DNA of 43,001 nucleotides from Spirogloea muscicola (Eukaryota; Streptophyta; Zygnematophyceae; Spirogloeales; Spirogloeaceae): positions 403,852 through 446,852 of the forward strand of contig WELB01000082.1 of NCBI GenBank assembly GCA_009602725.1. Direction: 5' to 3'. Below are positions 3,101-43,001 of this stretch, in pieces. Position 1 is the first letter of the stretch. Each line of letters begins with the position of its first letter. A program made the translations under genes and the position numbers. The notes under the pieces are model-generated. The model was not told the origin of the DNA. It searched no databases and saw only the letters and a program-made list of their open reading frames with translations.

Positions 3101-6100
3101 AGACCGAACTTGTAAATTGTACCTGATGTGCTTGCAGTCTGTGTCTGTCTGTGAGTATGTGGAAGCCTGTGCAATACCTCTATACCTCTGTATTTCACAA
3201 TCTCTGAGTAGTCGGAACACTGTGGTAGTCACAGTGTCCATATGGTCAAGAAGAGCGTGACTATTCATTATAGTTTCTTATGAGATTGCTCCATAGTCTC
3301 TCATGAGATTGCACGTGTACCTTATGTGCAGGTATCATGCCATCTGCCGAGGCAATCTGCTCTGTGCCAAATGCTCTCATTGCTCTCTGCTTGAACACCT
3401 CAGGGCTTCAAGATGTCCAAAGTGCAGGTGCCCTGAAATGCTTCATTCCCGTCTTCACCAACAAGCAGTACATGCGGGCTTTGTCAGGGGAGACGCCCTC
3501 TGTGCTAGGTGCAGGACTGGAGGAGTTGATGCGGCATGTTCCGAACTTAAGGCCGAACGGCATTGATATGAGCCTGGACATCCTGAGGACAATCTCAAGC
3601 ATTGGTGGAGCGATGCCAGAGGAGCCAGAGGAGCTGCAGAGCTCAGATAGGCCGCCAATGTCAGCAGATCAGGAGCAAGGCGAAGGCGTTAGGCTGCAGG
3701 GGGACATGAGTGTAGAGGATCCAAGGGGGCTGGCAGACCTGACTGATGCTGAAGGCATTGCTGTGCACAGCGCTGAAGTTGGCACGTCCAGTTCTGAAAT
3801 CCCTGTTCCAATGGAGACTGACCATGAGGAGAGGGGTGAGCAGGGCCAGCGTGGGACGGAGAGTGCAATTGATGGAAGCGCAGCTCCACTGGCTGGTCCA
3901 TCTTCTGCCACAGCTGCAGTCATGATACCTCAGCTGGATGGGGCAGAGCTTGAGAGCTTCCTGCTAGAAGCCATCAACAATGTCACACGACTGCTGGACT
4001 CCATGTTGGCCAACGCACACAGCAGTCGCTTATTCATTGAGCGGAGGGGCGTCGAGGCACTTTTGGGCCTTTACACATTGCCTGCCTTGCCGGTCAGCTT
4101 TGGAGGGTCGGCCACAGCACATAGCATGTCTGTCACCCTCCGCTCGTTCTCACCACAGCACTCAAGTCAACTCGTGAAGGCCGTCTGTTCGAGAATGCGG
4201 CAGCAGCTAAGGTCAGCTACGGAGCTTGCGACAACAACGTTGACAGCTGGCACATATTTTATCGACCTGGAGGCTTCGACTCGAGCAAAGCTGGCCAAGT
4301 CACTAGCAGCAGCAGAGTGCTTGCTCGCATTGGCAGCTGTACTGGTGAGGAGTTCGCCAACCATGCTGACTGAGATGGGCAGTCATGATGTTGAAGTCTT
4401 GGGGCATGCTGGCCAGCTTCAGCGACAGATTCAGTGGCAACTGGCCATGGCAAGCGACAGGAAGGAAGAGGTCAAGAAGGAAGAGGGGGAAGTTGCAGCT
4501 GCTGGGCTAGGAATTCCAAATGTATCAGCTGAAGGGGATGAGGAAGCTGGTGGGACGACTGCAGCAGTGCAGTTCGCGGAGTCCAGAGATGGAGGGTCGG
4601 CTGCGGGTGCAGGAGAAGATGGTGGTCAGTGGGCAATGGATGTGGACTTTCTGAACATGACTGGCATCGATGGGGCCGGAGATGGGCTGGCCATCCGGCA
4701 CAACAGGCAGATGGTCAGGCGTCGCCTCGATGAAGGGGTTGCAGCAGCAGTTGCCATCAATCATGGTGGTGGTCGGCGGATAGCTCGAGTGTCCCGCCAT
4801 GTGGACGCAACACAGGGCGACCTAGAAGCGAGCACTGCTCCTCTGCAGAGCGAGCTGAGCAAAGGCAAGCCACAAGAAATTGTGCAGGTGGACATGCTGG
4901 GCCGGCTGGTTGGTGCTGCACGACTCCTGTTTGTAGCACTTAGTAAAGCAATGATTGTACCGTCTCGACGTCGGTGAGCCACCTGTACTGGATTGTGGTT
5001 CTTGCATGCCATAAGTGGGATGCACCTGCCTGTGTAGCTTATGTCATTGCAAGTCCAGTAGTTGCTCACATGGTCCTCACTTTCAACAATACAAGCTGGT
5101 GTCCTTCTATCAGCAAGATTCCTGCTTTCATGTTTCTTGCGTACGCTGGAAATTTTTACGTCTTCACTAGTTTCTGTGCTATTTTACAGAGAGGACATTG
5201 TCTCCTTGAGCCAGCCAGCTAAGGCAATGGCAGTTGCTCTTGCGAAGTTGCTGCAAGAAAGTCTGGAATTCCAGGACAACATGGCAGGTACTGCTGCCAA
5301 GCAGTGGAAGTGTGGCATTGGAATGGGAACATGGTTATCTATCATATGTTATATTGATTCTTGATATTTTTTTGGAAGTAGTTGACAGGCATGTGTTTCA
5401 AGAATATGGTGGAGGAGTCAGAATATGCATAGATCTGCTTCCACTAAGCCATGCACTGCAGTGTGCACGCCCTGCTGGGTTGAGGAAGAGCAGCCTAGTG
5501 TCATCTTCAGTTGGTCACGATGTGAACTTTGTGTTGGGTAATCTGAGCGCTTGCTTGCTGAACAGGCGGGCAACTATCAGACACTTTTGTCAAGTGTCAC
5601 TACATCGGGAGGGTTGTGGACGACATCACGGCGGTTTTATTTGATAACAGGCGCAGGTTATGTAATACTGCCATGCTTGGAGCTCTCTATGGCCATGGTG
5701 CTGTGAAGCAGCTGCTCAACCTCTTCCGAGCTACCAGTCAACTGCTGTGGAATCATGGTACTCTGCTTTCACAACAGCTCAGCTGGCAGTCTGCAGAAAT
5801 GTGCTAAGGTGTGATGCAATGTAGCAGTTTGATTGGTCTCCTTGTACAAGTGAGCCTGATGTGCTATGGCTAACTTATACTATCCCTCTGTGGCAGGTGG
5901 AGGCAGCAGTTTGGTGCAAGTTGGACATGATGGAACAAATTCATGTCCTCCATGGCTGATTCACGGGCTTCGCAGCTTTGCCAGACTCTTTGAGCAATTG
6001 GTGGCGTCTACCCTTGTCTTGGGACAACCAGCTTCAGCTGCCTTGTTGGTGCAACCCCTGCCAGGATCAATCATGACGCTGCCCAAGGATCCAGAGGCTG

Positions 6101-18439: not shown

Positions 18440-19230
18440 CCTTCGGACATTGGCCATTCCTTTTGGGCTGGCTTTTCACAGCTTGTCTTTCTGACTTGTG
18501 GTTGCTTACTACAGATCACTTTGTGACCATCTTCAGTGGTACTTGTCTGTGTGGTATAGCGCTTTCCAGCCCCTTCAGACCTTGTCGATTCTCTCCGGGC
18601 TGGCTTACACAGCCCTCCACCCCTTCGAACTCGCGGTTACTAAGAGCCCCCTTGCTGCCGGCTTGGCAATTAGTACCTTGCTTTTTGCGCCGTCCGGCCC
18701 CTCCAGACCTTGTCTCATTCTTTTGGGCTGGCCTCTCACAGCCACCAGTCATTTGGAAGCGCTGTTCTCCTTGTACTTGGCCACTCAGGCCCTGCATCAC
18801 GTTTACACACTCATTCCTTCGGAAGAGCTCACTCTCACAGCCATCGGCGCGTGTGTTCAGCTCATACACCTGTTGGCAGAAGGGCTTCAAGTGTGCTGTA
18901 CGGAACTTGGCCATAGATTGTCGGCCTCAACGTGTTGACTGAGCGGGTCGGCTTATCCATGTCTTTGGGCTGGCCTCTCACAGCCACCAGCCAATTGGGC
19001 CGCGCTTTCTTTGCTGAGCAGTAGGTGACGTACATCAAACGACGTGCATGGCTTTATACTTCTGAGATGGCGCTTCTGGCCCCTTCGAACTTTGCCCTTT
19101 CTTTGTTCGGGCTGGCTTATCACAGCCCTTGCCCCCATCCATCGTTCGGGCTGAGCTTCTCACAGCCACCGCCGTCAATCCGGAAAGCGACTTTTCCCCA
19201 ATGGGAGAGCCACTTCTCCTTTGTACTTCG
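18440..19230 (-). repeat. Degenerate tandem array of the dispersed GGGCTGG...CACAGCC repeat
   Basis: The core reads, in plus orientation, CCTTGTC-ATTCTTTTGGGCTGG followed by CTCTCACAGCCACCAGT. It recurs near 18452-18482, 18572-18615, 18700-18757, 18953-19010 and 19077-19173 (two cores close together), with a weaker match near 18787-18846. Spacing is roughly 130 bp, and the spacers also resemble each other (for example 'CCCCTTCGAAC' and 'TGTACTT' words), so the unit is about 130 bp. The same core occurs in the opposite orientation at 30541, 31201 and 32510. The array ends about 200 bp before the proteasome gene. There are no terminal inverted repeats or coding capacity that would identify a transposon. 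Confidence 0.75.
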
Positions 19231-33725: not shown

Positions 33726-36700
33726 ATGTGGAGCGGCCTGGGCCAGGGCGTGAGCGCCAAGCAGGAGTACCCCGGCGCCGTCGCCATCCCGGGCGCAACG
33801 CATGACCATGCCAAGGGCGAGCGCGTGGCCACTGTGGCCTCCATGCTTGGCGTGTCGCTGGATGACGACTGCGCCCAGGGCATGACCGTGGATGACACTG
33901 CAGACCCTCCTCAAGAGGATGACAGGCCAGGTGCTGCAGCTCATCTCCAGAAGCTAGCGCTCAGCCTGGCTGACTGACTTGACTTGCGCTCCTGGTTGGC
34001 TCAAAAGCTGGCCGCGAATCTTGCATGCTTCAGCCTTGTCATGAAACGCTGCATTGCACCACAGCATGAATAAGACAGTCATAGCAAACCGCACGACTGC
34101 AGCGTTTCACCACTGCTGAACGACCTTTGCCCTTTGAAATCATACAGAACCGCGCATGGGCATAGTGGAGAATTGGATGGATTTTCCAGGTGCATCTCTT
34201 CACTTGCTAAGGGGCCATACACCGACTTGCAAGTTTAGGCTCGGGTCCTCAGATTTACGCTTCACTGCAGTACTTGGTACTGTGCTCCACATTTTCTCGT
34301 ACCTCAACAGCTTGAACGGCTTGCCTGTACATCACAATACAAGAGGGACTGGAAAGGCTGTATTTTGCTTTAGTTGACAGGCTGCTGTCAACTGTGCTTC
34401 CTTGTGCTGCCTTGCCAGGTGTCTAACACGTTGCTGTATTGCAGAGATGGGCGTGGGTACAGATTTCAGCCACGACTTTGTGAACGGCAGTGGACCCCTC
34501 CAGATTCCCTTTGAACATCGCCAGGGAGGGACGTTCATGGAACCATGCCTTACAGAGCAAGGAAGTGGCCTTGCGTTTGGGCAGACACTGCCGGCGCCTC
34601 TCCAGGTATCCTCGCCCTCATCATCTATCTCTGGTAGAATGATAAATCACATACAGCACTACAAGGGCAGATTGACAGCACGGGGGATGTCAGCTCTGGA
34701 GTGATCACTTGACAAGGAAAAGTAGGGTATAGATGTGAATGTTTTTACACTGGATGATCGAGTACTGAGGGAAGAGCCTGACCATTAATTTACGCGGAAT
34801 ACCTGCTTGTGGCTGATGATACGCTGAGACTGTTGCTATGCCAACATGTGTAGAACCCCACACACCCAGTGAGCTTTGGCAACCACCTGGAGCTGCCGTT
34901 CTTGACATACATGGCGCGTACAGAGAATCAGATTGCGGCTCAGCGTCAGCTGCTCGACTTGGCATGGTGCAAAGCCCGGCACTGCTGCTTTTTGCACGTC
35001 TCAATCTTTTGCACATCCATTTGACTTTCACAGCTGTTGGTTGTGCTGCTAAGAAGAAGGTTTCTCCAGGAAGGTTGCCCTATTGACCTGCAGCCCGCTG
35101 TATTTGCTGGCAGCAAGGAGCGCGATGAGGCCCTTGCGCATGCCAAGGCTACACTCATGAAGGCCGAGAGACTGGAGGCCTTGCTGATGGCTCAGGCTGG
35201 GGATCCTAGCAAGATGCTGGCCAATGTGAGCCCGCATCTTGATGTAGATTTGTGTGAGCTTTCATATCAGGAACATCAGATTGGTCAACTTGCAGGTGGC
35301 TGTTCAGTGTCCTTGTGTTACTTCATTCTCATGATGCTGGGGCTGTGTTGCTACCTCTCTGCAGGCTGCATTGCCTAAGGGCATCCGCTTCACCCCAACG
35401 GAGCATGAAGTATTTGAGTGGCTGTGGCGTAAGATTGAGGGCATGCAGGCAGGTGCCAGTGAGGCAGAGTTGAATCAGTACCTTGCGTATCAACTTCGCA
35501 AGATATCGGATCCTGATGGTCTCATCCCTGAAGTGGATCTGCTTGCAAAACCTCGTCCGTGGCTCCTCCCAGGTATGTGTTGGGCAAGCTCTCCTTCTAC
35601 TCATGAACAATCTCGGATAAAACCTCTCTTTCAAATCTCAGAGCAAGCACCAGTGCTGAAATGCACAAGCAATCATGAGGCCAGAGCTGATTTGTCAGTC
35701 ACTCGCGTTGTCCTTTGATGCAGGCTTGTTCATAGCACCAGTGGATAAGGGGATGCTGGGGTTGGTGGGCTACTTTTTTGTACGGCCGCAGTATAGGACT
35801 GGTGAAAAGCGCAGGCGACGAGAGTGTGCGCTGGGCCTTGGTGATACCAAGCCTCCGTGCTGGAAGGAGAGTTGCCAGGCGACCAACTTCAATGAGCTCC
35901 TGGTGCGCTAGCTGCCCCCTCTGAGATGTCGTCTTGGGCTGGCTGTGCAGGCTTAGATGACCAAATCAATTATATTTCTTCTGCTTGGAGGTTGTCCTGC
36001 TTCACACCTGGTCGCAGACTTGGACAAATCTAGCACTTCTTTACCCGAGCATGCATGGTAAGCTTTGCAAGGGACGTCATTTGGAAAAAGACTTTCTTAA
36101 TGGTCACCTCGTTGGTTGGAGCTTCCTCTGCAGCCCATCTATGGTACGAGGCCCGAGCGGCGCATGTTTCGTTTCAAGCAGCCGGGGGCAAGGGAGGGCC
36201 CTGCCGAGGCCAAGGAGAAGTGGAAGATGTACGAGTACACGCTCAAATCGGATGTGGAGATGCTGGAGGACGAGCGAAGTGGCCGCAACGCATGGGTGAT
36301 CTGCAAGGTTGTGAGGGAGGATGTGGAGGACATGAGCCTAGTGGAGCGGCAGGGTGTTACCAATGGCAATGACGGCGCCCAGGGCTCCGGCTCAGGCTCC
36401 CCAGGTGCAAGCCACGGGGGTAATCCATATTCTGGTGGGGGCACCTCGCATGCCAATCTTGGTGGAGGAGGCTATGGCCACGGAGGCTATGACGGCAGCA
36501 ATGGTGGTGGGGGCAGCAGCGGCGGCAGAGGGTCATCGCCGTCGCCCTCCAGAGGCTCCTACTCGGGCAACTACCAGTCGCTGCAGCTGCAGGCTGTGCC
36601 GTCAATCGCAGTACCGAAGGCTGGCGTATCCACTGCTACCAGTGCGAGTAGCAAAGGCAAGGGGGTCCTGGGTGTCACGGTCCTGGATGCTGTGGTTGAG

Positions 36701-38353
36701 GACTTCTTTGTCCGCCGGCTCGCTGACAGGGAGCGCCAGGAGAGGCAGCTTGTGGAGGGCATCCGCATTGGCCAGACGGCGCCTGTGGAGGAGGAGGACG
36801 AAGTGGAGGGCGAGGAGGGCGTTGTGGAGGAGGAGGATGATGTCGTGGGCAATGTGGAGGTGGAGGTGGTTGCCAAGGTTGCAGCGGAGGTTGAGGAGGA
36901 GGGACAGGAGGAGGAGCAGCATGTGTCGAAGACGAGGGGCAAGCCGACGGCTGTGCAGAGCTTGCCCGGCGTTGTGGCCGCTTTGGGCGAGAACATGCAG
37001 AGCAGCCTGCAGCTGAGTGGCGTGAGTGGCGCCGGCGGCCGAAGTGGCGTCAGTGGCAAGGCTGGCAAAGGGGGCCAAAGTGAGGCCAAGCGGAAGCTTG
37101 ACGACTTGAGCAGCCCCAAGGAGAGCCCCCTCGCCGGCAGCCCTCCGGAGAAGAAGGGCCTTGAGAAGGACTTCATCACAGCCAACTTTGGTGGCTCTGA
37201 CCTTGACCTTAGTCAGCTGAAGGCTCTTGGGAAGGCCGAGGATGTCCACCGCAATTTCTTACCAACGGCGCAGATGGTGGAGGTGTGGAACGTCGAGCAG
37301 AGCGATGTCAATCATGTGGAGAGTGCGGCCCTGGCTGTGAAGATCAGTATGCTTGAGGAGCCCGCGGCTGAGGTGGATGAGAGCAAGGTCTTAGCACTTG
37401 CAGCGGAGCCAGCAGTGTCCGAGCAGGACGCCTATGGGTGCCCTTTGTATGCCCTTGAGGATCTCAAGTTTGCGACGGCTGACTTTGCCAACAAGATTCT
37501 GGAGGATGCTGAGTATGGCAATGAGTACCTTGGCACACTGAACGACGGCAGTGTTATTGTCAAGAAGTATGGCACGCGGATAAGAGCACCAGGGGCCGCG
37601 TCTAGCATCTCGCACCTGGCATCGCTGAAGCACCCTGCCATCGTCCCACTCATGGGCTGCTGCCCTGCAGAGGGCTGCCTTATGTATAAAGCCGTGCAGG
37701 GCGGCAGCCTTCAGGAGCACCTCCGAGCCCTGGACTGGCGCAAACGGCTCACGATTGGGGCGGAGATTGCAGAGGCCTTGGCATACCTGCACTCGCGCTC
37801 TCCGCCAGTGCTGCACCAAAAGCTGAAGCCATCCAGTGTACTCCTTGTGCATACGCCGAGCCAGCTGAGCATGAGCGGATCCAAGCTCGTGCCCCAGCAA
37901 GAGCAGCTGAGCAAGTTGGCTTTCATCGGCCCGGTTGATCTTGCAGCAGTCACATCACCAGCAGCCGGTCGGGCTGGGATGCAGCTTGGAGGCCGAGGAG
38001 CTTCGGTGTCTCCTTATCTTGATCCTGACACACCCAGGACCGGCGTATTTGGCCCCGCATCGGATGTCTATTCGTTTGGCATCATCCTCCTGCAGCTGCT
38101 GACTGGTCTGCCTCCAACTGCTGCTCTGGGAGCCATCCAGCGGGCCGTCTCGGGAGGTTTGGAGAGCAAGAGCCTGGCGAGTGTGTTGGACAGGGAGGGC
38201 GGAGAGTGGCCAATTGCGCAGGCTTTCAAGGTGGCGGTGCTTGCACTTGAGTGCACGCACATGAACCCGTGCGACAGGCCTGATCTTGCTCTCCATGTCC
38301 TCCCAGTCTTGCAAGAGGTAATATCACTTGGCCACATGCCTTTTGAAGCATGA
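33726..38353 (+). CDS. NAC-domain protein fused to a U-box/RLK-type pseudokinase (about 1,080 aa)
   Basis: Exon model: 33726-33930, 34445-34605, 34854-34966, 35060-35225, 35365-35572, 35724-35902, 36134-38353; the third and fourth exons are tentative, the last three firm. The NAC domain (about 218-403) shows subdomain A (LPKGIRFTPTEHEVFEWL), B (DGLIPEVDLL), C (GYFFVRPQYRTGEKRRRR, WKES), D (RRMFRF, KWKMYEYTL) and E (NAWVICKVV). NAC domains dimerise and bind DNA. Then come a Gly/Ser-rich stretch (about 450-490), an acidic Glu/Val run (about 562-610) and a basic AKRKLDD site that could aid nuclear import. The C-terminal 300 residues follow the plant U-box-kinase/RLK fold: PLYALEDLKFATADF, HPAIVPLMGCCPAEGCLMY, WRKRLTIGAEIAEALAYLH, SDVYSFGIILLQLLTGLPP, CDRPDLALHVLPVLQE. 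The beta-3 Lys is kept (VIVKK, about 821). HRD reads HQK (about 905), DFG reads FIG (about 941) and the Gly-loop lacks its pattern, so catalysis is unlikely. No U-box follows. The kinase may instead bind a ligand or a partner kinase. An alternative last intron (donor at 38317, acceptor before 38562) would end the gene at 38591. Confidence 0.82.
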
Positions 38354-39762
38354 AATGAATAAGCGTTTGGTCATCTGTGTCAATAAGAAGCACTGCTGTT
38401 CGTGCACATTGTGTTGATGTAGATACAGCAGTAGATGCATTCCTTGTCTCAGACTTCTTGAAAGCAGAGAGTACTCTGAATAATTACAGAGCTGGTATTT
38501 GGTCATGAGAGGGCTTGCAATACTTAGTTCCTGCAGCATTGCTTTTTCTGCTTCTGAGCAGGTAAAGGAATTTGCGGGAGCATCATGCTGACCTAGCCGG
38601 AACGCTCCGCCAGCTATTTGGCGCTTCACTTCTGTTCAGGAGAAGGCAGGGTCTTCTTGAAAGGGCTTCCAGTCCTTTAGGATGCATTCTCCCTGCCGTT
38701 ATGGATGCAAGCAAGGCAGGCTGACATACTGCTGGCTCAGTCTTCAGTACAGCTCCTTCACACCAGTTCATATTAGCTGCCCAGTGCTTTACGACGTCTA
38801 TTCAGTATCAGTACTTCGTTCTCAGAGTCCCCAAGTACCGCAGTATTGTAGCCTAATGGAGGGCAGATAGACCTTGTAAATCGACAAAGAAAGCAGCTGT
38901 TGTGCAAGCACAGCTATGCTTAACAGTAGATTGTTGCTTTGGGCGCCTACGACCTGAATGTGTTTCTGACAATCTTGCTGCAAAGTGGTCAAGATATTGA
39001 GTTGGTAGAGGATGTCAAAAGCATAGGCCAAAGAACCTCTTTACACCTTTCTCAACCTGGAAGGATGTGGGCAATGCTATTGAAATGCTTAAGATGGTGG
39101 TAGATAATCTGAGGCGCATATTGTAAGGCGGTGTGTCGGCGATGTGTAAGAGTTATTGACTGCAAATTAGAGGCACTGATTCACAGAGCAGTAAGTCTAC
39201 TCCTGAACGTAAGACAAACTTGCTCCGAAACAAGCTGACTATTTGAACAGAAGGTTGGAGAAGAGGGCACCAAGAAGTATCACATGGGCCTGACAGAAGC
39301 ACCATGGCACCTACGAAATTCTATCCTTGAGCTTGTTAACATGATGCAAAGGTCGCCAGCAATTCATCAATCTACAAGAGCACTATCTGTGTGCATGGAC
39401 AAAACAAGAATCAGGGTCGATGCCACCATTTCTGTCAGCAAAGTGACAAAGTAGGAGTTGGGAGAAGAGGGCACAGCAACTGTAAGATCTCGTATAGGTT
39501 GACTGCAAGTGCTATAGATGCACGCTTTGTACCTTCTAATGGATGAGATTATTCTAGGTGGAGGTATCCTTGCCATGAAGGGCAAACCCCAGCGTCAGCA
39601 CTGGCAAAGTATATACAGGCTGTTATGTACCATGTCAAAGGCCTCAGAGCTGTCCCATTTTCTGACTTATTCTCGAACTTGTGGCATAAGGAACCTCACA
39701 GCAGCGATACCATACAGAGGACATGCACCAGCATCAGCTGCTGCAGACCATACATGTTACCA
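38354..39762. other. Spacer between convergent NAC-pseudokinase and threonine deaminase genes
   Basis: This holds the 3' ends of both genes. A short possible extra exon of the NAC-pseudokinase gene (38562-38591) lies here. No other coding frame, RNA gene or copy of the dispersed repeat was recognised. Confidence 0.5.
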
Positions 39763-42700
39763 TCATCTCATGAACATGTGAAAGGCCTCGTTGCCGCTCT
39801 CGTTTTCATACTCATAACCCAACGCATTCGCACTCAACTCAAAGTCCCTTGCCTCGTCGGCAGGAACTTGCAAGCCAACCAGGCAGTTGGCACCCATCTC
39901 CCCCTGTCAAGCATGGAGACAGAAGGAATATCTCTTATCGAAATATACTGTGAGCAAGCATGGAGTCAGCTCTTCAGTCCAGCTGACGAGGTTTAGGGTT
40001 GGCGACTAAGAGTGCGCATCCAGCAGTTCAACAATGTTGTAGTAAGAGCAGTAACAGCTATGTCGAAGCCAGAATTTGCAGTACTTTTATGGGGATTGAT
40101 GTCAAAGAATTGGCCACTTCATATATTAGAGCTCACCTGCGATCGATAATGGAATAGAGTAATATTCCATCTAGGGCTCAGTATCTGCAAGAACTTGGCC
40201 AAGGCGCCAGGCTTTTCTGGAAACACAAATCTGTATAGAGTTTCATTTGGTACGTCTGTTCTTCCGCCCACCTGCCGGCAACAAGCTCCTATTATCAGAA
40301 ACAGCATGGCTACTGAGACAAACATTGTCCACAGCTAAAAGCATAACCCCAGGAAGGCCTCAATGTGGTGGACCTAGAGCACCATTTAGGAGAATATGGA
40401 CTGCCCTTTCATGCAGATTTGATGCATGCAAGGGCTTGCCAGATGGCGAAGATGATCCTTGGCCAAGTCGTTGGAGGTCATGTCCACTGTCGGCAGGCCA
40501 GCTGTAATCATGCGCTCCTTGAGTGCGTCGAGCTCGTCTTGAGTGTGAACCCCCACACTGCCAGGAGCAGCCAGTCACACAATTTCTGATGGTTGTTACA
40601 CTGGTCAAGACAGAGCTCATTAATTGTCCTATTTGCTCTATGAGCACATGTCAGATCGAGAGGGTGCTCAGTCTGCACCTGTACAGGACGTGTGCCACGC
40701 GGTCGTCAGCGTAGCGGTATTTAAACTCAGTAATGCTCAGCTTCGGGCCCACCTAAGGTGGTAGGGCAGTGGCAATACTCGAATCAGTACCCGACAAACA
40801 TGTCTAGATTTTGTTGCTGGGAGCGTCTGGCCAAGACATGCTACAAGCAGGAGTTGCAGATGACATTAATAGATGTAGATTTGGAAGCCTCTTCCGTCTC
40901 CCGCATATACCATAGATGCAAAGGTCTTGAACGACCCTGGAGTCTCCGGCATGGACGTTGCGAGCACGGCTTCCCGCCGCGCCCCGACGTTCGCCAGCTC
41001 TGTGATGAGCCGCAGGCGGTCGAAATTCATGTTGGCACCGCTGGTCACGGCAACCACACTCTCGCCCTCCAGGCCATAGTAGGTGCAGTACGCTTTGGCC
41101 CCCGCTAGCGCCAGCGCCCCAGCTGGCTCTAGAATGCTCCGTGTCTCTTCAAACATGTCCTGATGTTCAAATCCGACGAGCATTCAGCGTACGTCAAGCA
41201 CCCCACAACTGGAAGTTCCTGCATACCCAATAGCAAAATGTAGATTATTGATCAACATCGTGCTAGGATCTTCTACCTTGATTGATGCGCAGATGGCGTC
41301 CCTGCCAACGAGCACGACGCCATCCAGCAGCTCTTGGCAGAGGCGGAAAGTCTCCTTGCCGACCATCTTGACTGCCACGCCGTCGGCAAAGCCGCCAACC
41401 TGCTCCAGCTGCACCCGTCGCCCGTGGTGGAGGGAGAGTGCCATGGCGTTGGCATCAGCAGGCTCCACGCCAATGATGCGCACCTGGCAGGCCAGCAACC
41501 TTTACAGTCACGTCAGGATTGCACTGGTTGTTGACGAATCTGGAGCTCGCATGTTGCCCTGATCCGGCAGCTTAGGCTGCCACTGTGAAACCATTTGCGC
41601 TCACACCCATTCGCGCTCAAAGAGGATGCAGAATCTGAGCCTCCGTTCTGTCTCTTGAGATCTCTTTGGGGAGCAGCTAGCTAGAATGGGTGACAAGGTC
41701 CAACCTCGGGCCTGAGGCGCTTGACATAGGCAGCGATGCCGGCGATGAGGCCGCCGCCGCCCACGGGCACAAAGATGGCGTGGAGGGGCCCCGGGTGCTG
41801 GCGCACAATCTCCAGGCCGACCGTCCCCTGCCCGGCAATCACGTCAGGGTGGTCGAACGGTGGAATGAACACCCGCCCCTCCTCCTCTCCCCTCCGCATC
41901 GCGTACGCCTGTGCAACCGCAGCAACCCATGAGCGCCTCCGTTTGGGGGAATGTGACACGGGGACAGAGGAGCGCTGGGACAGAGGAGCGCTGGGGCTCG
42001 AGGAGACTACGAGAGGTATTGCATCGTGCGAGTAGTATGGGCAAGTTGAAGGCCCAAAGACAGGTCCTGGTAGCGGTTTGCACATACTTTTTTGAAATGT
42101 CAGTCAGCAAAGTAAGCTTGTTCGCAGTAGATGCCAATCTGATCATCGGAGTGTGGTGGGGCACCAGGAAGAGCTTGCCTGCGTCTCGTCGTAGCTGTCA
42201 CCGACCAGCACAACAGTGGCGCCCAGGCGCTCCACCGACAGCCACTTGATCTCTGGCGTCGTGACGGGCATGGCGACGACGGCGCTGCAGCCGAGGACGC
42301 GCGCCGACAGCGCCACGCCCTGCGCGTGGTTGCCCGCCGAGGAGCAGATGACGCCGCGAGCCAGCTGCTTGGGCGGCAGCTGCGCCATCATGTTGTACGC
42401 GCCGCGCAGCTTGAACGAGAATACCTGGCGGATGCAGAGAGAGAGAGAGAGGGGTCAGCAGGACGTGTTGCAGTAGCGGCATCAGGAGGAACCTGCTCTC
42501 ACTTCTCAGCGACCTCTGTCTCAATCAACACCTAAGACCCGAAACTTGGAAATGACCGAACAAAGGACAACGAAGACTCCAACTCTCTGCTTTTGAGCTC
42601 CAGACGATCGGATCATCTGACAGCGCTGCGACGGCGGTGCCCTCTCGTCAGGCCTTACTCGGAGCGAAGGACTCTGGACGCAGTTGAGGCTGGCCTGAGC

Positions 42701-43001
42701 CCTCGCACCAGTCAGGCAGCCCACTATCGAGGGCCGCAGCCTCAGCCGGCCTGCGAGTTTTGGGCTTAGGATCGGCGCAAGGTGGGACCTGCTGCATGTC
42801 CTCGCGCTTGAGGAGGACGCGGGCGCGCACGCGCTCGCTCAGCTTGGGCGCCAGCTCCAGCGGCGACTCCATGGCCACGTCGTAGACGCGCGACGTGAGG
42901 ATGCGGCGCAGGTAGCCCATGGCCGACAGCGAGGGGTCCGGCGGGCAGGCCGCCGCCGCCGCCGCCGCCGCCGCCGTCGCCTCACCGCGCGCCCCCACGA
43001 G
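39763..43001 (-). CDS. OMR1: Threonine deaminase (biosynthetic threonine dehydratase), 5' end outside the window
   Basis: The PLP enzyme converts threonine to 2-oxobutanoate, the first step of isoleucine synthesis, in plastids of plants. Exons in coding order: >43001-42789, 42424-42179, 41908-41705, 41483-41277, 41159-40911, 40752-40679, 40557-40440, 40271-40137, 39903-39763; phases close throughout. About 527 residues are visible. Motifs: [20 protein letters not shown] at the start of the catalytic domain; [10 protein letters not shown] with the PLP-binding Lys; [29 protein letters not shown] phosphate-binding loop; [12 protein letters not shown]. Two C-terminal ACT-like regulatory regions follow ([36 protein letters not shown] with [12 protein letters not shown]), the feedback-control module of the biosynthetic enzyme rather than the catabolic one. 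The Ala-rich N-terminal part in view, encoded by a (GCC)n run at 42949-42976, probably belongs to a transit peptide; the true start lies beyond the window. Introns 2 and 7 appear to use GC donors (42178 and 40439). Confidence 0.93.
42436..42452 (+). repeat. AG dinucleotide run in threonine deaminase intron 1
   Basis: About eight AG repeats lie just upstream (in coding orientation) of the acceptor of exon 2, read as CT on the coding strand. It probably serves as the polypyrimidine tract of that intron. Confidence 0.7.

Follow-up and report, generated by a model that had tools for sequence, protein, structure and literature searches.

A NAC domain joined to a putative pseudokinase in one gene of the alga Spirogloea muscicola, carried in three genomic copies

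The Locus and Its Gene

The zygnematophyte Spirogloea muscicola carries a gene in which a NAC transcription-factor domain and a kinase-like domain share one reading frame. The gene lies in a stretch of 43,001 nucleotides (C82:403852-446852; hereafter the window) of an assembly of 153 Mb in 471 contigs, and is found again at two further places in the genome, on C57 and C291. Its model has five exons on the forward strand (34447-38353) with GT-AG borders and agreeing splice phases, and encodes 965 residues. Its parts are as follows:

34447-34605 (+): exon 1, residues 1-53; proposed start ATG; frame and GT donor identical in all three copies
35094-35225 (+): exon 2, residues 54-97; acceptor uncertain
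35365-35572 (+): exon 3, first part of the NAC domain, LPKGIRFTPTEHEV ... PWLLPG; AG/GT borders and length identical in all three copies
35724-35902 (+): exon 4, middle of the NAC domain with KRRRR; AG/GT borders and length identical in all three copies
36134-36328 (+): 5′ end of exon 5, completing the NAC domain (to about residue 291)
36329-37414 (+): linker of ~362 residues, rich in Gly/Ser at first, then acidic, and better conserved as it nears the kinase fold
37502-38287 (+): putative pseudokinase domain, Pfam PK_Tyr_Ser-Thr, residues 683-944
37820-37822 (+): codon of Lys789, at the place of the catalytic Asp of HRD (which reads HQK) in all three copies
38351-38353 (+): stop codon

The final exon (36134-38353) forms a single open frame, with a stop after 739 codons. 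As an earlier note on this DNA had stated, it runs from within the NAC domain, with the words RRMFRF, KWKMYEYTL and NAWVICKV, into the kinase fold, with SDVYSFGIILLQLLTG and RPDLALHVLPVLQE. Because this exon encodes the entire kinase-like domain as well as the end of the NAC domain, the join is independent of splicing, as had also been claimed. The placing of the gene at 35365-38353 was right as to the locus and the fusion but not as to the start, which is probably 34447, at an inferred start codon and with two further 5′ exons. The acceptor of exon 2 is weak, the C57 copy having no AG at exactly that place; with the start codon inferred as well, confidence in the first ~97 residues is lower than in the remainder.

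The earlier note had named the NAM profile PF02365 with PF00069 or PF07714 as the matches to look for, and their absence as a finding that would speak against it. On the spliced 965 residues Pfam returns all three, each above its cut-off: PF07714 (PK_Tyr_Ser-Thr) at residues 683-944 with E=8.8e-14 and 51.9 bits against a cut-off of 23.1, PF00069 with E=2.3e-12, and PF02365 (NAM/NAC) at residues 130-263 with E=1.7e-9 and 38.7 bits against a cut-off of 27. In the same sequence Pfam finds no EF-hand and no parts of nucleotide-binding leucine-rich repeat (NLR) proteins. The domain matches and their join lie far beyond chance and recur in the two further genomic copies; at the DNA level the fusion is real.

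Three Genomic Copies

The kinase part is near-identical on C57 (92%) and C291 (91%), the NAC exons have copies on the same two contigs, and the DNA of the whole gene aligns at 92% and 91%, respectively. Both domains are recognized by Pfam in each copy. Exons 1-4 are equal in length in all three, and exon 5 measures 2,220, 2,220 and 2,218 nucleotides up to the window's stop. The DNA downstream of the gene (39200-43001, 3.8 kb) is likewise collinear, at 86% with C291 and 84% with C57. An assembly or annotation artefact was considered and rejected, as the same join is carried by three contigs. Triplicate blocks of this kind would fit the whole-genome triplication of S. muscicola reported in an excerpt of PMC10487979.

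The NAC Domain

The NAM match is of similar strength in the three copies (38.7, 38.6 and 38.9 bits). Aligned with the NAC proteins of C16, C63 and C50 in the same genome, the fused gene keeps the start motif LPxGxRFxPTxxE, which belongs to the dimer region, as LPKGIRFTPTEHE, and it keeps the end of the domain (W-MxEY ... WV-CKV). The DNA-contact motif WKATGxD is not kept, and DNA binding appears uncertain because the stretch reads CWKESCQATN here as opposed to YWKATGKD in C16 and C63. A genome-wide NAM search, run exon by exon (E<=0.001), did not have the fused locus among its matches, and the NAC part alone gives weak single-sequence matches to NAC structures in the PDB, the best at E=0.0074; the domain is thus divergent. 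A basic run, KRRRR, at residue 195 in exon 4 is a possible nuclear signal, and an extension of ~97 residues precedes the domain.

A closeness to the GTRKRR-type NACs, represented by C50 and presumably SOG1-like, was considered. In a global profile comparison, built on very thin alignments, the canonical NAC of C16 scored better (Prob 92.0) than C50 (46.2) or C63 (38.4), and the subfamily claim was dropped.

The nearest NAC paralogues form a second trio, on C80, C49 and C48, with 52-64% identity to the fused gene over the two 3′ NAC exons and ~32% over the 5′ exon. They share with it the unusual stretch KRRRRECALG...CWK. The final frame of the C80 sister (282 residues) has no Pfam match, nor has its spliced form at E<=1, so its identity as a NAC is taken from the 52-64% identity of the two 3′ exons.

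Two observations concern other NAC genes of this genome. Those on C50 and C73 (L060 and L061) both start HLPAGVKFDPTDQEL, and the former, which we assume to resemble the SOG1/SND2 type, continues with VGTRKRRRI and RWHKTGKTRPV. Many weak NAM-like exons (27-37 bits) are clustered on C21, C264, C348 and C9; perhaps they represent a lineage-specific expansion of divergent NAC genes.

The Kinase-like Domain

Searched against the PDB, the kinase part matches 407 distinct sequences at E<=0.001, with the SYMRK kinase as the best (2.1e-21). Its catalytic residues are mostly changed. In the alignment with the kinases of C266 and C122, the loop GEGTFG reads EDAEYG or EDAAYG, losing glycines 1 and 2 and keeping the third, the alpha-C Glu is Ser, HRD is HQK (as it is in the SYMRK alignment), and the Asn of HRDxKxxN is Ser or Thr. 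The DFG-like DVG reads PVD or PID, its Asp being replaced by Pro, or by Phe in another register judged by eye. These changes of the two loop glycines, the alpha-C Glu, the HRD Asp and Asn and the DFG Asp are common to all three copies and, because the copies agree, the losses probably predate their parting. With most catalytic positions degenerate, the domain appears to be a pseudokinase.

An active kinase, whose substrates would be partners at promoters or the attached NAC part, would have the clear kinase profile match in its favour, as well as a Lys that the SYMRK alignment puts at the VAIK place, and some kinases that lack canonical residues are active. With the listed positions changed in every copy, this alternative seems highly improbable. 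Phosphotransfer by the fused protein is unlikely because most catalytic positions are changed, and a working signalling enzyme is accordingly not supported. The one-protein signalling route to the nucleus put forward in the earlier note is a conjecture.

The closest relatives of the kinase part among single exons of the genome are those of C266 and C122 (38% identity, ~104 bits against 34 for the next). Both genes encode a kinase followed by a U-box (PF04564 at E=5.6e-12 in C122; by tblastn in C266), and the fused kinase shares with them the ending LD..GxWP...A.KVA..AL.C......RPDL. A U-box is seen at 11 of 20 loci examined, several of them overlapping, with summed bits of 94-161 against the fused kinase; the other nine reach 48-89, except for the C404 gene (two overlapping loci, 119), and as the loci span ~3 kb and may miss a U-box, the contrast is rough. 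On these comparisons the kinase part appears to be of U-box-kinase type, closest in the genome to the U-box kinases, a group which we take to be RLCK-IX.

A U-box hidden after the stop was considered and rejected: tblastn gives no match at E<10 in the 4,648 bases downstream of the window gene, and in the C57 and C291 copies only matches with E>=4.6. A receptor kinase with a membrane anchor before the kinase was rejected too, the highest 19-residue Kyte-Doolittle mean over residues 1-653 being 1.53, where 1.6 is the usual mark for a membrane span. The description of the fold as RLK/U-box-type therefore holds for its closeness to U-box kinases and fails in that no U-box follows and no membrane anchor stands in front.

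The kinases of C266 and C122 contain an intron and the fused kinase has none; the intronless region could have arisen through a processed copy or through intron loss. Pattern searches of viral and prokaryote collections gave 65 and 406 matches, respectively, none of which was confirmed as a relative.

The Linker and the Case for One Chain

Over the 2,187 nucleotides of exon 5 that precede its last ~11 codons, the three copies show no stop and a single gap, of three nucleotides, in the linker. Exons 1-4 have no gaps in 678 nucleotides. The introns of the three copies have 22 gaps in 1,009 nucleotides, 17 of which are not multiples of three.

Constraint was assessed by placing the observed base changes randomly within each segment in 2,000 simulations, for the window gene against C57 and against C291. 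The linker has 35 amino-acid changes where 51.4 are expected and 36 where 49.1 are expected, and the kinase 23 against 40.5 and 30 against 48.9; in both segments, no simulation in either comparison is as low. For the NAC segment, 0 and 1 simulations reach the observed low count, and for the end of the linker (residues 561-653), which is constrained, 0 and 15. The ratio of nonsynonymous to synonymous substitution rates (dN/dS) among the three copies is 0.04-0.06 in the NAC part, 0.26-0.30 in the linker and 0.21-0.27 in the kinase. On these counts, selection has held the putative pseudokinase domain since the copies parted.

The locus might yield two products: one transcript would carry the NAC part and stop in the linker, and another, kinase-like, would begin within exon 5. 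Internal Met codons are present in frame, and the middle of the linker is its least constrained part. However, a frame of ~740 codons is uninterrupted in all three copies, and the linker has no frame-breaking gap and is constrained as a whole; we regard two products as unlikely. The gap pattern, the simulations and the dN/dS values over linker and kinase favour one chain, leaving a single transcript unproven, and the product is probably one polypeptide.

A relic is also hard to reconcile with these values. Under this explanation a chance fusion left the kinase half drifting without a role, as the loss of catalytic residues, the absence of a kinase match in the sister NAC trio and the changed C-terminal end of the C291 copy would allow. 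A drifting domain is at odds with the kinase dN/dS and with the failure of all simulations to reach so few amino-acid changes, and we consider it very improbable.

A Proposed Role for the Fusion

The explanation we favour, with moderate confidence, is that one gene encodes one soluble protein of 965 residues, composed of a NAC domain, a linker and a C-terminal pseudokinase that serves as a partner-binding switch. The locus would be transcribed and translated as one chain, which may enter the nucleus by way of its KRRRR run, and the NAC part would dimerise and bind DNA or partner NACs. The linker, long, of low complexity and partly acidic, is possibly activating. The pseudokinase, presumably a descendant of the U-box kinases that lacks the U-box itself, would act as a switch, through protein binding or dimerisation, and so adjust how active or stable the NAC part is or where it is placed. 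Binding of a partner, such as an active kinase or a ubiquitin ligase of the U-box family, could trigger the switch; phosphotransfer by the protein itself would not be expected.

Several observations weigh against this proposal. The divergent NAC domain makes DNA binding uncertain, and the dN/dS of the 97 N-terminal residues is 0.89 in one comparison, against 0.31 and 0.28 in the two others. The linker is weakly constrained at its start (residues 292-380; 111 and 28 of 2,000 simulations) and its constraint is unclear in the middle (residues 381-560; 102 and 221 of 2,000). Within the kinase part, the VAIK place, which bears on nucleotide binding, is a Lys in the SYMRK alignment and a gap in that with C266, while one 19-residue stretch, the sole window above 1.6, reaches a Kyte-Doolittle mean of 1.73, against a maximum of 1.32 in the U-box kinases C266 and C122. 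Single-sequence structure prediction of this part gave a mean predicted local distance difference test (pLDDT) score of 37.6 and is unusable, so that the fold assignment rests on sequence profiles. The C291 frame changes ~11 codons before its end, where further gaps of 4 and 1 nucleotides occur, and runs 20 codons longer (759 against 739). Finally, no kinase match was found among the best candidates for the C80, C49 and C48 paralogues, so this NAC subfamily generally does not need a kinase. Either the lineage of the fused gene gained the kinase or the sister lost it; gain seems the more likely.

Alternatively, the pseudokinase may be a decoy or bait that mimics a U-box or receptor-like kinase and catches a partner or attacker, with the NAC part reporting the event. 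The kinase part is of signalling-family ancestry and looks catalytically dead, yet appears to be held by selection. Fusions of WRKY transcription-factor domains to immune receptors are documented in an excerpt of PMC4350883, and excerpts of PMC6634424 and PMC9532615 describe plant pseudokinases that act in immunity or bind a transcription-factor subunit. The locus offers no link to immunity and Pfam finds no NLR parts in its product, and we judge a decoy quite unlikely.

If the product is one chain, this alga, of the group closest to land plants, has a transcription factor that carries its own kinase-shaped binding module. Such a protein would provide testable cases of a signalling fold reused after the loss of catalysis and of the NAC family rebuilt outside land plants. 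The three retained copies are a good object for asking whether selection holds the pseudokinase half.

The C404 Locus and Other Features of the Window

On C404 (L050:1427-5540), coiled-coil and kinase exons lie downstream of another NAC gene, in the same orientation. At the DNA level they are about 85-87% identical to U-box kinase loci on C18, C26 and C11. A single frame would result if a GT donor at 3370/3371 were spliced to an acceptor before 3463, 3481 or 3508. HRD reads HRA in this kinase, and the locus has no U-box match. For the NAC copies on C264 and C21, the 4-5 kb downstream show no kinase. C404 is possibly a second, unreplicated join, or the two genes may be mere neighbours. That the lineage has a standing class of NACs gated by a pseudokinase derived from U-box kinases, joined more than once (in the trio of the window gene and on C404), is a doubtful extension of the proposal.

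Elsewhere in the window, positions 18628-18776 hold an interspersed repeat of ~140 bases, found on dozens of contigs at ~79-93% identity (among the best 37 of 2,574 candidates). An open frame on the reverse strand (41681-42103), in a surrounding region that also occurs in three copies, presumably resembles a pyridoxal phosphate (PLP)-dependent threonine dehydratase.

Comparison with Known Systems

The fused gene shares with NAC transcription factors the NAM profile and the start and end motifs. It differs from them in the lost WKATGxD, the N-terminal extension of ~97 residues and the C-terminal pseudokinase, where the usual NAC C-terminus is an activation region or a membrane anchor. The plant U-box kinases, with their order of coiled coil, kinase and U-box, include its closest kinase relatives in the genome; in contrast to these, the fused gene has no U-box, mostly changed catalytic residues, an intronless kinase region and a NAC domain in front.

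In the literature, no description of a NAC-pseudokinase was found at the level of titles and abstract openings. According to an excerpt of PMC11096116, 209 Pfam combinations are unique to Zygnematophyceae in a set that includes Spirogloea, and its tables may already hold the NAC-kinase pairing; the passages found in that paper, in PMC11289646 and in PMC12820192 contain none. The earlier note had known of no established class that pairs NAC with a kinase fold. However, kinase-NAC and NAC-kinase-EF-hand chimeras are listed among plant proteins in an excerpt of Mohanta et al., 2020 (PMC7147800), and the pairing is therefore not unprecedented. As excerpted, those chimeras are domain-scan entries given with no conservation or transcript test; compared with them, the fused gene has no EF-hand, a kinase that looks dead and three conserved copies.

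NIPK is a pseudokinase reported to bind a transcription-factor subunit (PMC9532615, in excerpt). AtWRKY19 (MAPKKK11), the only member of its group in the excerpt of PMC4350883, joins a WRKY domain to a MAPKKK. Like the fused gene, it combines a plant transcription-factor domain with a C-terminal kinase domain in one protein; it differs in its WRKY and NB-ARC parts and in the MAPKKK type of its kinase.

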